This document shows, one piece after another, positions 35,331 through 40,363 of a stretch of DNA of 64,000 nt. Both the position numbers and the translations under genes were made by a program. The first letter of the stretch is position 1. Each line of letters begins with the position of its first letter. Source of the stretch: Vibrio aphrogenes (lineage in GTDB: Bacteria; Pseudomonadota; Gammaproteobacteria; Enterobacterales; Vibrionaceae); assembly GCF_002157735.2 (NCBI RefSeq), contig NZ_AP018689.1, positions 806,001 through 870,000 on the forward strand. The letters run 5' to 3'. Below the pieces are notes generated by a model. The model had not been told where the DNA came from. It saw only the letters and a program-made list of their open reading frames with translations, and ran no database searches.

Positions 35331-36104
35331 TTATTTCGCAATAAAACGTCGAATCGCTCTGAGGACTTCATCCGGCTTTTCCGCATGGAGCCAGTGACCC
35401 GTATTGGCGATCACATGGGCTTTGCTATTGGGAAATTGTTGGATAATAGCTGATTGGTGCTCAGGGAGTAAATAATCTGAATTCGCACCTTTTAAGAAGA
35501 GCGTTTTATTCTGGAAAGGGGCAATAGGATCCCAGCCTTGAATGTGATGATAATTATTGATGATCACCTCCACATTGAATAGCCACTGCATATAGACATC
35601 TTTGTGATGTAATGATTTAGCTAGAAATTGGCGAACGCCATCTAATTCAAGATGCTGGCTAAGACACTCTAAAGCGGCTTTTCTTGTGGTTGGTTTTTGT
35701 TGTATCACAGATTGTAACCCAGCAAATACATTGTCATGGCGTCTTTGGGTGTAATGGATCGGTGCCATATCAAGAACCACCAATTGAGTAATTTTCTGCG
35801 GGGCCAATGCTGATAATGCCATTGCTGCTTTACCCCCCATCGAGTGGCCGACCACGATCGCAGATTCTACATTTAGGTGGCTTAGTAAGCGCAATAGATC
35901 GTCTGCCATTGCTTGATAGTGCATTGTATCACTATGAAAAGAGTGGCCATGATTGCGTAAGTCGACGCTAATGACCGTATGGTCGGTGGTGAAATCGCGG
36001 GCTAATAACCCGAGGTTGCTTAAACTGCCAAATAAACCATGAATCAGAATAATGGCGGGACCTTGTCCTTGAATTGTGTAATTTAATAAGGGTTGTGATG
36101 GCAT
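35331..36104 (-). CDS. ybfF: Alpha/beta-hydrolase esterase YbfF
   Basis: A 257-residue cytosolic hydrolase. The nucleophile serine is in GHSMGGKAA, the oxyanion segment is HGLFGSLSNLG, and the likely catalytic histidine is in NTGHWLHAEKP. E. coli YbfF acts on short-chain acyl esters such as CoA thioesters; the native substrate is uncertain. In E. coli ybfF is divergent from seqA-pgm; here a two-gene cytochrome operon separates them. Confidence 0.92.
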   Translation of the reverse strand: MPSQPLLNYTIQGQGPAIILIHGLFGSLSNLGLLARDFTTDHTVISVDLRNHGHSFHSDTMHYQAMADDLLRLLSHLNVESAIVVGHSMGGKAAMALSALAPQKITQLVVLDMAPIHYTQRRHDNVFAGLQSVIQQKPTTRKAALECLSQHLELDGVRQFLAKSLHHKDVYMQWLFNVEVIINNYHHIQGWDPIAPFQNKTLFLKGANSDYLLPEHQSAIIQQFPNSKAHVIANTGHWLHAEKPDEVLRAIRRFIAK

Positions 36105-36316
36105 GAGGTTTCCCCAGATAAAAGCGATGCGGCGTATGATAATACAGAGTGAAAGAGAAAGTAATCTGTCGACGGGCTTACATTTGTGAACATAAATTAA
36201 ACAAAATAATTTATTTTATATTAACTATCTGTTCTTATTGTAAAAGCACTGTAAATCGAATCCGCTATACTTTAATTATTTGTAATCTAATCAGTCTATA
36301 ATAATTAGGAAGTAAT

Positions 36317-36970
36317 ATGAAAAAACGTTTAACAGCGGTAGCTTTATTGCTGCTTCCCATAATAGGAGCCGCAGAAAGTTTACCAGAAGAAAAAGAAGGA
36401 ATTGTGCCGTTTTGTTCCACTTGTCATGGAGTGAATGGCGTCTCTACTTTAGACCATATTCCTAATTTATGGGGACAATCAGAACAATACCTCCACGAGC
36501 AAGTTGAAAACTTTCGTAGCAAGAAGCGCCACACCACTTTTATGGACGCGTTTATTTATCAAATTTCAGATGAACAAATGGCAACCATTGTAAAACATTA
36601 TTCAAGTGTGCCGAATGCATTAACGTTTGACCTGCAATGGCGAGGTGATAAATGGCCTGGAGATATGAAGTTAGGTGAAAAAATTGCTTATAGCGGAAAA
36701 ATGGAAGCGAACATTCCGGCTTGCGTGGCTTGTCATGGTCCGAGTGGCGTCGGCGTCAAGCCTAGTTTCCCTCGTCTTGCGGGGCAAAATGCCGCGTATT
36801 TAATCAACCAGATGAAATCATGGAAAGATGGGACTCGTCCACCAGGGGCGATGGCGTTAATGGGGCCGATTGCGAATGGTTTAACGGATGAAGAAATTAA
36901 GGCTGTGTCAGGTTATTTCGCCTCACTTGGTCAACCGATAGGACAACAAACAGCGGAGGTGAAAAAATGA
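36317..36970 (+). CDS. tsdB: Diheme cytochrome c4-like electron carrier, probable TsdB
   Basis: A 217-residue periplasmic protein with a signal peptide (1-19) and two heme c sites, CSTCH (33-37) and CVACH (136-140). Each is followed by a cytochrome c fold with its own methionine candidates (M76 region; PPGAMALMGP). Two tandem cytochrome domains are the cytochrome c4 pattern, and TsdB is the c4-like partner that passes electrons between TsdA and the respiratory chain. Its stop overlaps the next start by four bases (ATGA), so the two proteins are translationally coupled. The name depends on the TsdA call. Confidence 0.82.
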   Translation: MKKRLTAVALLLLPIIGAAESLPEEKEGIVPFCSTCHGVNGVSTLDHIPNLWGQSEQYLHEQVENFRSKKRHTTFMDAFIYQISDEQMATIVKHYSSVPNALTFDLQWRGDKWPGDMKLGEKIAYSGKMEANIPACVACHGPSGVGVKPSFPRLAGQNAAYLINQMKSWKDGTRPPGAMALMGPIANGLTDEEIKAVSGYFASLGQPIGQQTAEVKK

Positions 36971-37878
36971 AATATCTCTTATTAAGCCTTTCTCTGTTAA
37001 GTGCGATGACATGGGCGGAAACCGGTCATACCGATTTAGCTCAGGTAGAACCAGGAAAAGCTCTCGCAGAAGGTGAGAATTACCACCAAGTTCCTGATTG
37101 GAACGCTATTCCTGAAGAGCATTTCGCTGAGGCAGTAAAGCGAGGTTATTCTATTTTTATGAATAGCCAGCAGATGAAAAGTGATGGCGCGGTCGGAAAT
37201 GGCCTTAACTGTACCAATTGTCATTTATCAGCGGGACGCTTAGCCAATTCAGCTCCTTTATGGGGGGCGTATGTGTCTTATCCTGCATATCGGGGTAAAA
37301 ATAACAAGATCAATACTTATGAAGATCGCTTACAAGGGTGTTTTGCTTATTCTATGAATGGAAAGCCACCTGCGGCCACCAGCCAAGAAATTTTAGATTT
37401 AACGGCTTATTCATATTGGTTAGCGACTGATGCCAAAGTGAACGCGAAGATTTCTGGCCGCGGATTTCCCAAAGCAGCCCAACCGAAGTTAGCCCCTGAC
37501 TTTATCCGGGGTCAGGAAGTATATAAAGCAGAATGTGCATTGTGTCATGGTGATAATGGGGAAGGGCGCAAGGTTGGTGAGCGTTATGTTTTCCCTCCAT
37601 TATGGGGTAAAGACAGTTATAACTGGGGAGCTGGTATGCATCAAATCAGTTCTGCGGCTAACTTTATTAAAGCGAACATGCCTTTAAGTAAAGGAAACAG
37701 TTTAACCGATCAACAAGCATGGGATGTGTCGACGTTCATTAATAGCCATGAACGCCCACAAGATCCGCGGGTAATGAAATCGGTGGCTGAAACCGCGAAA
37801 CAGTTTCATGCGAAAGATTCGTTATATGGTACGCCATCTCCCGTTGATCAACATATCTTAGGAACAAAAGCTTATTAA
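36967..37878 (+). CDS. tsdA: Thiosulfate dehydrogenase / tetrathionate reductase TsdA
   Basis: A 303-residue periplasmic diheme cytochrome c with a signal peptide (1-17). Heme sites are CTNCH (82-86) and CALCH (190-194). C125 in RLQGCFAYSMNGK is placed 39 residues after the first heme histidine, where TsdA has its unusual axial cysteine. M238 in FIKANMP is 44 residues after the second heme histidine, matching the distal methionine. TsdA interconverts thiosulfate and tetrathionate at heme 1. The residue before M238 is Asn, as I recall for the Campylobacter enzyme, rather than the Lys of Allochromatium. SoxA-like cytochromes are a less likely alternative. A strong terminator follows. Confidence 0.85.
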   Translation: MKYLLLSLSLLSAMTWAETGHTDLAQVEPGKALAEGENYHQVPDWNAIPEEHFAEAVKRGYSIFMNSQQMKSDGAVGNGLNCTNCHLSAGRLANSAPLWGAYVSYPAYRGKNNKINTYEDRLQGCFAYSMNGKPPAATSQEILDLTAYSYWLATDAKVNAKISGRGFPKAAQPKLAPDFIRGQEVYKAECALCHGDNGEGRKVGERYVFPPLWGKDSYNWGAGMHQISSAANFIKANMPLSKGNSLTDQQAWDVSTFINSHERPQDPRVMKSVAETAKQFHAKDSLYGTPSPVDQHILGTKAY

Positions 37879-37916
37879 ATTGTGTAATGGTACGAATAGA
37901 TATCCTGCAAGCAAAG

Positions 37917-37948
37917 AAAGCCTCTATAGTTATGGTAGAGGCTTTTTT
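37917..37948 (+). terminator. Terminator of tsdBA
   Basis: AAAGCCTCTA (37917-37926) and TAGAGGCTTT (37936-37945) form a perfect 10-bp stem with a 9-nt loop and a T run. Confidence 0.92.
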
Positions 37949-38092
37949 GAACAGACGATCAGGTAAGAATAAAAGATTCAGTGATCAAACCGATCCTTTT
38001 TATGATTAACTCATCGTATTTGGCATAGAGTATCTGTTCACTTATAGGTATAATCACACCAGTTTTAAACAGATTGAGATTGTGAAAAGCCA

Positions 38093-38629
38093 ATGAAAAC
38101 CATTGAAGTAGATGAAGAACTTTATCGTTATATTGCGAGTCAAACCCAACATATTGGTGAAAGTGCCTCGGATATATTACGTCGACTTTTAATCGGTGGG
38201 CAGCAAGGATCACAAGAGGCTATTCAAGTCGCACAACCGGTTGTGATCGAAACACCGACTCAACCCGCGAAGCAAGAGAAGCCTGATGGCGTGAAAGTAA
38301 TGCGCTCCTTATTGATCTCTGATGAGTTCGCAGAAAAAGATAAAGCCATCGATCGTTTTATGATGATTTTATCTTCTTTGTACCATGTCAATGCAGCCAA
38401 TTTTGCGGAAGCGGCGAAGGTGAAAGGTCGTACCCGTGTTTATTTTGCTGACAATGAAGAAACATTGCTGGCGAGCGGCAAAACAACCAAACCTCGCTCG
38501 ATCCCCAATACTCCATTTTGGGTGATTACCAACAACAATACCAACCGCAAACGCCAAATGGTGCAGCAATTAATGACACAGATGGGCTTTCAAGCTGATC
38601 TCATTGATAAAGTGTGTAATGCCATCTAA
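38093..38629 (+). CDS. seqA: Replication initiation modulator SeqA
   Basis: A 178-residue protein that binds hemimethylated GATC sites, sequesters oriC and limits re-initiation. The N-terminal oligomerisation segment is MKTIEVDEELYRYIASQTQ with SASDILRRLL. The C-terminal DNA-binding domain contains RSIPNTPFWVITNNNTNRKR. A glutamine/proline-rich linker lies between (about 40-65). It precedes pgm as in E. coli, but an intrinsic terminator lies between the two genes. Confidence 0.97.
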   Translation: MKTIEVDEELYRYIASQTQHIGESASDILRRLLIGGQQGSQEAIQVAQPVVIETPTQPAKQEKPDGVKVMRSLLISDEFAEKDKAIDRFMMILSSLYHVNAANFAEAAKVKGRTRVYFADNEETLLASGKTTKPRSIPNTPFWVITNNNTNRKRQMVQQLMTQMGFQADLIDKVCNAI

Positions 38630-38657: not shown

Positions 38658-38699
38658 AGCCTCATAATATTTGTTTCCCACCTATTATGAGGCTTTTTT
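38658..38699 (+). terminator. Terminator between seqA and pgm
   Basis: AGCCTCATAATA (38658-38669) pairs perfectly with TATTATGAGGCT (38683-38694), 12 bp, followed by a T run to 38699. It lies only 30 bases before the pgm start, so pgm needs read-through or an internal promoter in seqA. Confidence 0.88.
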
Positions 38700-38728
38700 A
38701 CTTTAAGATTATTGCAAAGGATTATGGA

Positions 38729-40363
38729 ATGCCTATTCATCCAAGAGCTGGTACAAAAACTTTACCGGAAGATCTCATCAATATTCCTGCTTTAGTGAGT
38801 GATTATTTTTTCGTGCAACCGAGTGCTGACAATCCTGCACATAAAGTTCAATTTGGGACTTCGGGTCACCGTGGATGTTCAACCAAAGCGACCTTTAACC
38901 AAAACCACATTTTAGCGATCGCTCAAGCGGTGGTAGATGAGCGTGTGGCCAGTGGGCTAACGGGGCCAATGTTTGTCGGAAAAGATACGCATGCTTTATC
39001 TGAGCCTGCTTGTCGCTCAGTCATTGAAGTCTTGGTTGCAAATGGGATTAAGGTGATTGTTCAAGCTGACAATGGATTCACCCCGACCCCGGGTATTTCC
39101 CATGCGATATTAACCTATAACCTGGCTCATCAAGATAAAGCTGATGGAATTGTGATCACACCATCGCATAACCCGCCACAAGATGGTGGTATTAAATATA
39201 ACCCAAGCCATGGTGGTCCAGCAGAAGCGGAAATTACGCAACGTATTGAAGACAAAGCGAACCAATACATTCGCGCACAACTTGCCGGGGTGAAACGCGC
39301 CGATAATGCCTTAGAGCAAGTATTGGCTATGGATTTAGTTCAACCTTACGTGGATGACCTAGTCAATGTCATTGATATGGAGGCGATTCAAAAAGCCAAC
39401 ATTAAAATTGGCATCGATCCTTTAGGCGGGGCAGGCATTGAATACTGGCGTCGCATTGCTAAAACTTATCAACTTGATATGACCTTAGTGAATGAAACCG
39501 TCGATCCGTCTTTTCAGTTTATGACGCTTGATAAAGATGGGGTGATCCGTATGGATTGTTCATCCCCTTATGCGATGGCGAGTTTATTGGCGTTGAAAGA
39601 TGATTATGATTTGGCTTTCGGCAACGACCCTGACTATGACCGCCATGGGATTGTAACTCCACAAGGGTTAATGGATCCCAACCATTATCTCGCGGTGTGC
39701 ATTGATTACTTGTTCCGTCATCGCAGTGAGTGGAAGCCGGATGTTCAAGTGGGTAAAACGTTAGTTTCTAGCGCCATTATTGATCGTGTGGTAGCGGATC
39801 TAGGTCGCGAACTGTGCGAAGTACCGGTTGGTTTCAAATGGTTTGTTGACGGTTTGTATGACGGGCGCTTTGGTTTTGGTGGTGAAGAAAGTGCTGGGGC
39901 GTCTTTCTTGCGTAAAGATGGCACACCGTGGTCTACCGATAAAGATGGCATTATTTTATGTTTGTTAGCGGCTGAAATTACCGCTGTGACCGGTATGAAT
40001 CCGCAGCAATATTATAATAAGCTTGCGGCGAAACATGGTGCATCAGCTTATAACCGTATTCAAGCGGTAGCCAACACTGAGCAAAAAAATGTGCTCAAAA
40101 GTATGTCGGCTGAAATGGTGAGTGCCGATGAATTGGCGGGTGAGAAAATTACCGCGCGATTAACTCATGCTCAAGGTAATGGCGGGGCAATTGGTGGTTT
40201 AAAAGTGACTACTGACAACGGTTGGTTTGCCGCGCGCCCATCAGGAACGGAAGAGATTTACAAAATTTATTGTGAAAGCTTCAAAGGAGAAACCCACTTG
40301 AAGCAAATTGAAAAAGAAGCGCAAGAAATCGTCAATCAGGTGTTTGCAAACGCTGGCTTATAG
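38729..40363 (+). CDS. pgm: Phosphoglucomutase (alpha-D-glucose type)
   Basis: A 544-residue cytosolic enzyme interconverting glucose-1-P and glucose-6-P, needed for UDP-glucose and glycogen metabolism. The phosphoserine loop is [16 protein letters not shown]. The metal loop DPDYDRHG and the sugar-specificity [10 protein letters not shown] motif follow, with the phosphate-binding [12 protein letters not shown] near the end. I use ATG 38729 ([16 protein letters not shown]), the usual N-terminus; the frame extends 14 codons upstream through the terminator and that part is not coding. Confidence 0.97.

Follow-up and report, generated by a model that had tools for sequence, protein, structure and literature searches.

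Between ybfF and seqA, the Vibrio aphrogenes genome carries two overlapping genes for dihaem cytochromes, tsdB and tsdA, which raises the questions of what this pair encodes, in which direction its chemistry would run, and how it came to lie at this junction. The locus is part of a 64,000-nucleotide stretch (contig NZ_AP018689.1, positions 806,001 to 870,000), hereafter the window, to which all unprefixed coordinates refer. Our overall reading, to which we assign a probability of about 0.77, is that the operon encodes a TsdB-TsdA pair that oxidizes thiosulfate and hands the electrons via TsdB to a cbb3 oxidase, and that it was gained once in a small Vibrio clade and then lost in about three of its lineages.

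A predicted TsdB-TsdA pair

The operon consists of two open reading frames (ORFs) on the + strand, at 36317-36970 and 36967-37878, which share the four bases ATGA (36967-36970), exactly as an earlier preliminary description of this DNA had it. tsdB encodes a 217-residue protein with a signal-peptide-like N terminus (judged by eye) and CxxCH haem motifs at C33-H37 and C136-H140, a predicted cytochrome c4-like electron partner, while tsdA encodes a putative thiosulfate dehydrogenase/tetrathionate reductase of 303 residues with motifs at C82-H86 and C190-H194. In Pfam, TsdB scores 57.9 bits against Cytochrom_C (cut-off 21.3), and in sequence it resembles cytochromes c4 and the TsdB segment at the N terminus of the fused TsdBA chain 5lo9 (E 4.5e-26). 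TsdA presents the SoxA-TsdA domain PF21342 at residues 78-150 (39.1 bits, cut-off 27), followed by the class I cytochrome c domain PF00034 at residues 181-261 (54.2 bits, cut-off 21.3), and matches the C-terminal part of 5lo9 (E 3e-77) as well as Allochromatium vinosum TsdA (E 1e-48 to 7e-48). The two proteins match consecutive parts of one chain, the order of the operon being the order of the fusion.

The predicted fold points the same way. An AlphaFold2 model of the window TsdA, built on 40 aligned sequences and reaching a mean pLDDT of 85, retrieves nine Protein Data Bank (PDB) chains at E <= 0.001, all TsdA or TsdBA, with fold scores of TMq 0.82 for 5lo9 and TMt 0.88 for 4v2k. Moreover, 78 of 80 named related tsdA loci have an upstream ORF with two CxxCH motifs that ends no more than about 200 bases from the match, the two exceptions being L058 and L099. 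That the second protein is instead SoxA, or a dihaem carrier resembling cytochrome c4, is highly improbable: SoxA is indeed its nearest NCBIfam model, yet the score of 54.4 bits stays under that model's cut-off of 110, TsdA entries lead the PDB matches in both sequence and fold with SoxA far behind, and no Sox-like neighbor is evident among the window ORFs, which were inspected by eye with no profile search made. With the halves of 5lo9 matched in order, PF21342 over its cut-off, and a predicted fold in agreement with solved TsdAs, the operon is tsdB-tsdA, a predicted periplasmic cytochrome pair, in keeping with its original assignment.

Alignment to A. vinosum TsdA places C125 at the haem 1 cysteine and M238 at the haem 2 methionine, giving the putative ligand pairs H86/C125 for haem 1 and H194/M238 for haem 2. 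The AlphaFold2 model contains no haem, and the distal-ligand role of C125 derives from this alignment and from what has been published on the equivalent cysteine, Cys96 in A. vinosum and Cys138 in Campylobacter jejuni (excerpts of PMC6879331 and PMC5146829). Both residues, picked out in the preliminary description as probable TsdA axial ligands, are invariant in 15 of 15 aligned TsdAs; in a separate set of 40 aligned sequences, H86, R121, C125, H194, and M238 are invariant throughout. The two distal positions are also conserved in all 44 tabulated TsdAs (29 of the 80 named loci, the window copy, and 14 Vibrio copies), among which residue 237 is N in 42 and S in two, both from Stutzerimonas.

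Which way the reaction would run

In the mechanism we favor, TsdA would convert two thiosulfates into tetrathionate on its cysteine-ligated haem, with the ligand cysteine forming an S-thiosulfonate (described for TsdA in excerpts of PMC4423706) and haem 2 serving as a relay, published chemistry that we assume to apply here, and the electrons would pass from TsdA to TsdB and on to the cbb3 oxidase. Three elements of this scheme are inferred: its direction, the electron transfer to TsdB, and the role of the oxidase as terminal acceptor. The preliminary description offered oxidation of thiosulfate or respiration of tetrathionate, and the sequence does not settle the choice; oxidation is the likelier of the two because an ORF for a cytochrome bearing two CxxCH motifs lies upstream in 78 of the 80 related loci, because genes for a cbb3 oxidase (ccoP 257 bits, cut-off 180) and for the Rieske subunit of bc1 are present in the window genome, and because Vibrio parahaemolyticus TsdBA converts thiosulfate to tetrathionate, according to the excerpted account in PMC11293645.

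Vibrio holds two separate TsdBA lineages, one mostly tied to ttr genes and one not. In a survey of 196 Vibrio genomes, in which TsdA types were assigned by match pattern and frame length, 67 gave any TsdA match; 16 of these were weak partial matches, including one remnant in the genome G074, and were set aside before counting. tsdA is present in the other 51, as the short type of the window (full-length in ten, including the window genome) or as a longer type (42), with G157 carrying both. The longer type is the commoner, with frames of 352-371 residues and a linker between the haem domains that is longer by about 44 residues; five of its 42 loci were seen in full (L042-L046) and five by tblastn (L157, L162-L165). 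Other Vibrio, Photobacterium, and Aeromonas also carry short-type TsdAs related to that of the window, and in a TsdA tree the Vibrio short type and its Photobacterium and Aeromonas relatives split from the long type, Pseudomonas, and others with a branch support of 100. Genomes with the long type have TtrA (1353-1422 bits) in 39 of 42 cases, within 10 kb of tsdA in 36 of 42, compared with five of ten for the short type and none within 10 kb.

Support for the route from TsdB to cbb3 comes from a gene fusion in two other Vibrio genomes, V. inusitatus (G143; L043:5993-10539) and G181 (L157:5197-9740), where an operon of the order ccoN-ccoO-ccoP::tsdB-tsdA encodes a CcoP of 484 residues with a C-terminal TsdB, the V. 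inusitatus protein bearing four CxxCH motifs. ccoN/ccoO lie beside tsdA in two of the ten long-type loci tested and in none of five short-type loci. Eight more proteins of 484-488 residues, from sources including Vibrio, Moritella, and Shewanella, are similar over 98-100% of the fusion in a comparison at the protein level. The fusion suggests a direct wire from thiosulfate dehydrogenase to the cbb3 oxidase, and its operon would encode thiosulfate:oxygen oxidoreductase activity within a single complex; if this is true, the assumed TsdB-to-oxidase route becomes directly testable. A narrow literature search with the two words CcoP and TsdB found no paper containing both, and the fusion is more surprising than the window operon itself.

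The relation to the ttr system bears on direction as well. The window genome has no recognizable TtrA, its best match reaching 57.5 bits (three of 11 first-look candidates scored) and being an 826-residue protein assigned to the DmsA family, against matches of 1353-1422 bits in 54 of the 196 genomes. The call rests on this gap, the curated cut-off of 1750 being reached by none of the 196, and the count leaves out G022, G037, G083, and G117 (best matches of 586-821 bits) as well as broken pieces in G074 and G035. Six PF00384 genes are present in the window genome (seven of seven candidates scored), with frames of 718-847 residues, none of TtrA length, and an NCBIfam scan of three of the six identified none as TtrA. 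A ttr-linked role for the window TsdBA was considered and rejected, since the genome has no recognizable ttrA. The earlier claim that the operon works independently of TtrABC is right in a stronger sense than was meant, there being no recognizable TtrA to depend on.

This lack of TtrA also favors a rival in which TsdBA is mainly a tetrathionate reductase that substitutes for the missing TtrABC, with quinol-pool electrons reaching TsdA by way of bc1 and TsdB. bc1 is present, TsdA is reversible, and the haem 2 surroundings resemble those of C. jejuni TsdA (both as given in excerpts of PMC5146829), yet the V. parahaemolyticus TsdBA is oxidative in the excerpts of PMC11293645, and the genomes show no clean swap, as G014, G041, and G183 have both TtrA and TsdBA while the window genome and V. 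rumoiensis (G182) have TsdBA alone. We consider this reading unlikely.

Reading the direction from the haem 2 residues was tried and dropped, as these residues do not decide it. N237 of the window TsdA occupies the position of A. vinosum Lys208, and the stretch K235-A-N237-M238 follows the K252-x-N254-M255 pattern of C. jejuni TsdA, an enzyme biased to tetrathionate reduction in the excerpted PMC5146829. According to the same excerpts, however, all TsdAs characterized by 2016 run in both directions, and the A. vinosum K208N variant retains wild-type residual reduction (PMC6879331, in part), so the Lys/Asn difference alone does not set the direction.

Several observations weigh against thiosulfate oxidation through a TsdB-TsdA pair. 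The likeness to C. jejuni at haem 2 is one; another is that, of the A. vinosum substrate-site arginines, one aligns with R121 and the other with K111 (K also in 5lo9), under an inferred match of the paper's numbering to the chain. NCBIfam yielded no TsdA model for the window protein, offering SoxA below its cut-off as the best. The enzyme of V. parahaemolyticus is most likely of the longer TsdA type, which is about 50% identical to the window TsdA, making the transfer of function indirect, and a consensus scan found no promoter for tsdBA.

A lone TsdBA without TtrABC might also serve as a two-way sulfur valve, sending electrons from thiosulfate to cbb3 when oxygen is present and respiring tetrathionate when it is not, kept between the housekeeping genes ybfF and seqA, at a junction that is otherwise conserved, while sister species repeatedly discard it. 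We regard this as doubtful; if true, the clade would be a natural gradation of tsd loci at one place, from intact through decaying to deleted.

Probable gain and loss at one junction

Whichever way the enzyme runs, its gene pair lies between the divergent ybfF (35331-36104, - strand) and seqA (38093-38629, + strand), with pgm (38687-40363) beyond, a placement correctly given from the start. Five of the ten short-type copies occupy this site (window, G041, G014, G182, and G183) and five lie elsewhere; V. litoralis (L050), from another collection, is a sixth case. In a tree of six neighboring proteins, the six operon carriers and the genomes G074, G078, and G162 form one clade (FastTree support 1.00, midpoint rooting) of V. 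litoralis and V. rumoiensis relatives. The TsdA tree likewise unites the six ybfF-seqA copies in one group with an ultrafast bootstrap of 99, the order of G182 and G183 having a support of 53. Among the nine clade members examined, the operon is intact in six, a broken remnant in one, and absent from two, one of which bears a deletion scar.

The ybfF-seqA gap of G074 (remnant at L032:8018-8587) holds tsdB residues 1-146, a piece in another frame, and, of tsdA, no more than the final 23 residues. G078 and G162 have a ybfF-seqA gap without a tsd gene. In G078 (L137:2383-2707), the sequence that follows tsdA in the sister genome G183 is retained over 166 bp at 93% identity, and the sequence that precedes tsdB in G183 over 142 bp at 78%; because both flanks of the gene pair survive in this way, we read this gap as a deletion scar. 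The empty site of G162 has no recognizable tsd-specific scar, and the loss there is read from the species tree; window positions 37976-38092 are 87% identical to its gap. As separate observations, the G078 gap keeps a hairpin-like repeat from downstream of the deleted tsdA, and the ttrA of G074 looks broken too (G074:C1:177238-178662).

Outside the clade, all 17 of 17 Vibrio loci have ybfF and seqA as neighbors 101-312 bp apart with no tsd gene between them. The seqA-proximal stretch of the window (38019-38090, + strand) resembles the seqA upstream stretch of such tsd-less loci, the best match being about 75% over 72 bp, and the operon is accordingly placed outside that stretch. Resemblance between the clade gap and the 17 outside loci is confined to this seqA-proximal part, and none of the 17 matches the sequence preceding tsdB in the window or in G183. 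In G138 (L140) and G003 (L144), the ybfF match itself is split into two or three parts, and the gene looks broken.

Had the operon been ancestral to Vibrio at this junction and lost everywhere outside the clade, its demonstrable losses within the clade and the related short-type TsdAs in other Vibrio, Photobacterium, and Aeromonas would fit. No tsd trace remains, however, in the 17 outside loci examined (of 196 genomes), whose gaps go down to 101 bp, and the five other short-type Vibrio copies lie elsewhere, making an ancestral origin decidedly improbable. The clade ancestor probably acquired the operon once, within the ybfF-seqA gap, and about three losses followed (G162, G078, and G074). A single gain followed by three losses is the simplest reading, the alternative being separate gains at the same junction. 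The proposal that the operon is an insertion, made in the preliminary description on the statement that E. coli has ybfF and seqA side by side, is right as to its place between these genes, but the operon is not particular to the window genome, being shared within a Vibrio clade and in the course of being lost there. The clade offers a comparison of one operon in its intact, broken, and deleted states at the same genomic position.

Genomic surroundings

The tsdBA promoter would be expected in the gap between ybfF and tsdB (36105-36316, + strand), where neither a consensus scan nor an alignment pointed with confidence to a promoter or a site for a regulator. In the alignment, which took in the sequence ahead of tsdB from seven loci, good conservation is confined to the part beside the start codon, around AGGAAG, with no convincing regulator site. 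Downstream of tsdA, a 14-pair hairpin with a U run at its end (37914-37948, + strand; -18.7 kcal/mol, z = -3.7, none of 200 shuffles as stable) is a predicted intrinsic terminator, bearing out the suggestion that the operon has its own; the consensus scan near the operon listed no + strand promoter and 0 terminators, and thus not this hairpin.

About 33 kb beyond the window end (G000:C1:902788-906819; L158:7789-11820), a gene for a PhsA/PsrA-type molybdoenzyme, with one for an iron-sulfur protein and a further ORF behind it, forms a locus that is possibly another sulfur-compound reductase; the molybdoenzyme and the iron-sulfur protein are below every NCBIfam cut-off shown (PhsA 234 bits, cut-off 694). 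A PF14537 search of the window genome for multihaem reductases was unhelpful, returning two genes whose products look by eye like NrfA and a multihaem TPR protein.

Relation to known TsdA and TsdBA enzymes

One close counterpart is Marichromatium purpuratum TsdBA (5lo9), which has its halves in the same order, matches the window TsdA in sequence (E 3e-77 for the TsdA half) and fold (TMq 0.82), and shares with it the Y-R-G-K-N stretch and the N-M at haem 2, but is one fused chain where the window has two separate overlapping genes. A. vinosum TsdA (4wq7, 4v2k) has the fold predicted here, and its haem 1 Cys and haem 2 Met align with those of the window protein, whereas its ligand-switching Lys208 corresponds to Asn237 and one substrate-site Arg to Lys111. 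C. jejuni TsdA shares the K-x-N-M at haem 2, going by the residue numbers in excerpts of PMC5146829, where it is described as unable to reduce TsdB and biased to tetrathionate reduction. Within the same genus, V. parahaemolyticus TsdBA is a TsdB-TsdA pair like that of the window, but one placed under TtrRS control in the excerpted PMC11293645. Set beside these systems, the window operon is a well-supported TsdBA of an already known enzyme family with an informative history.
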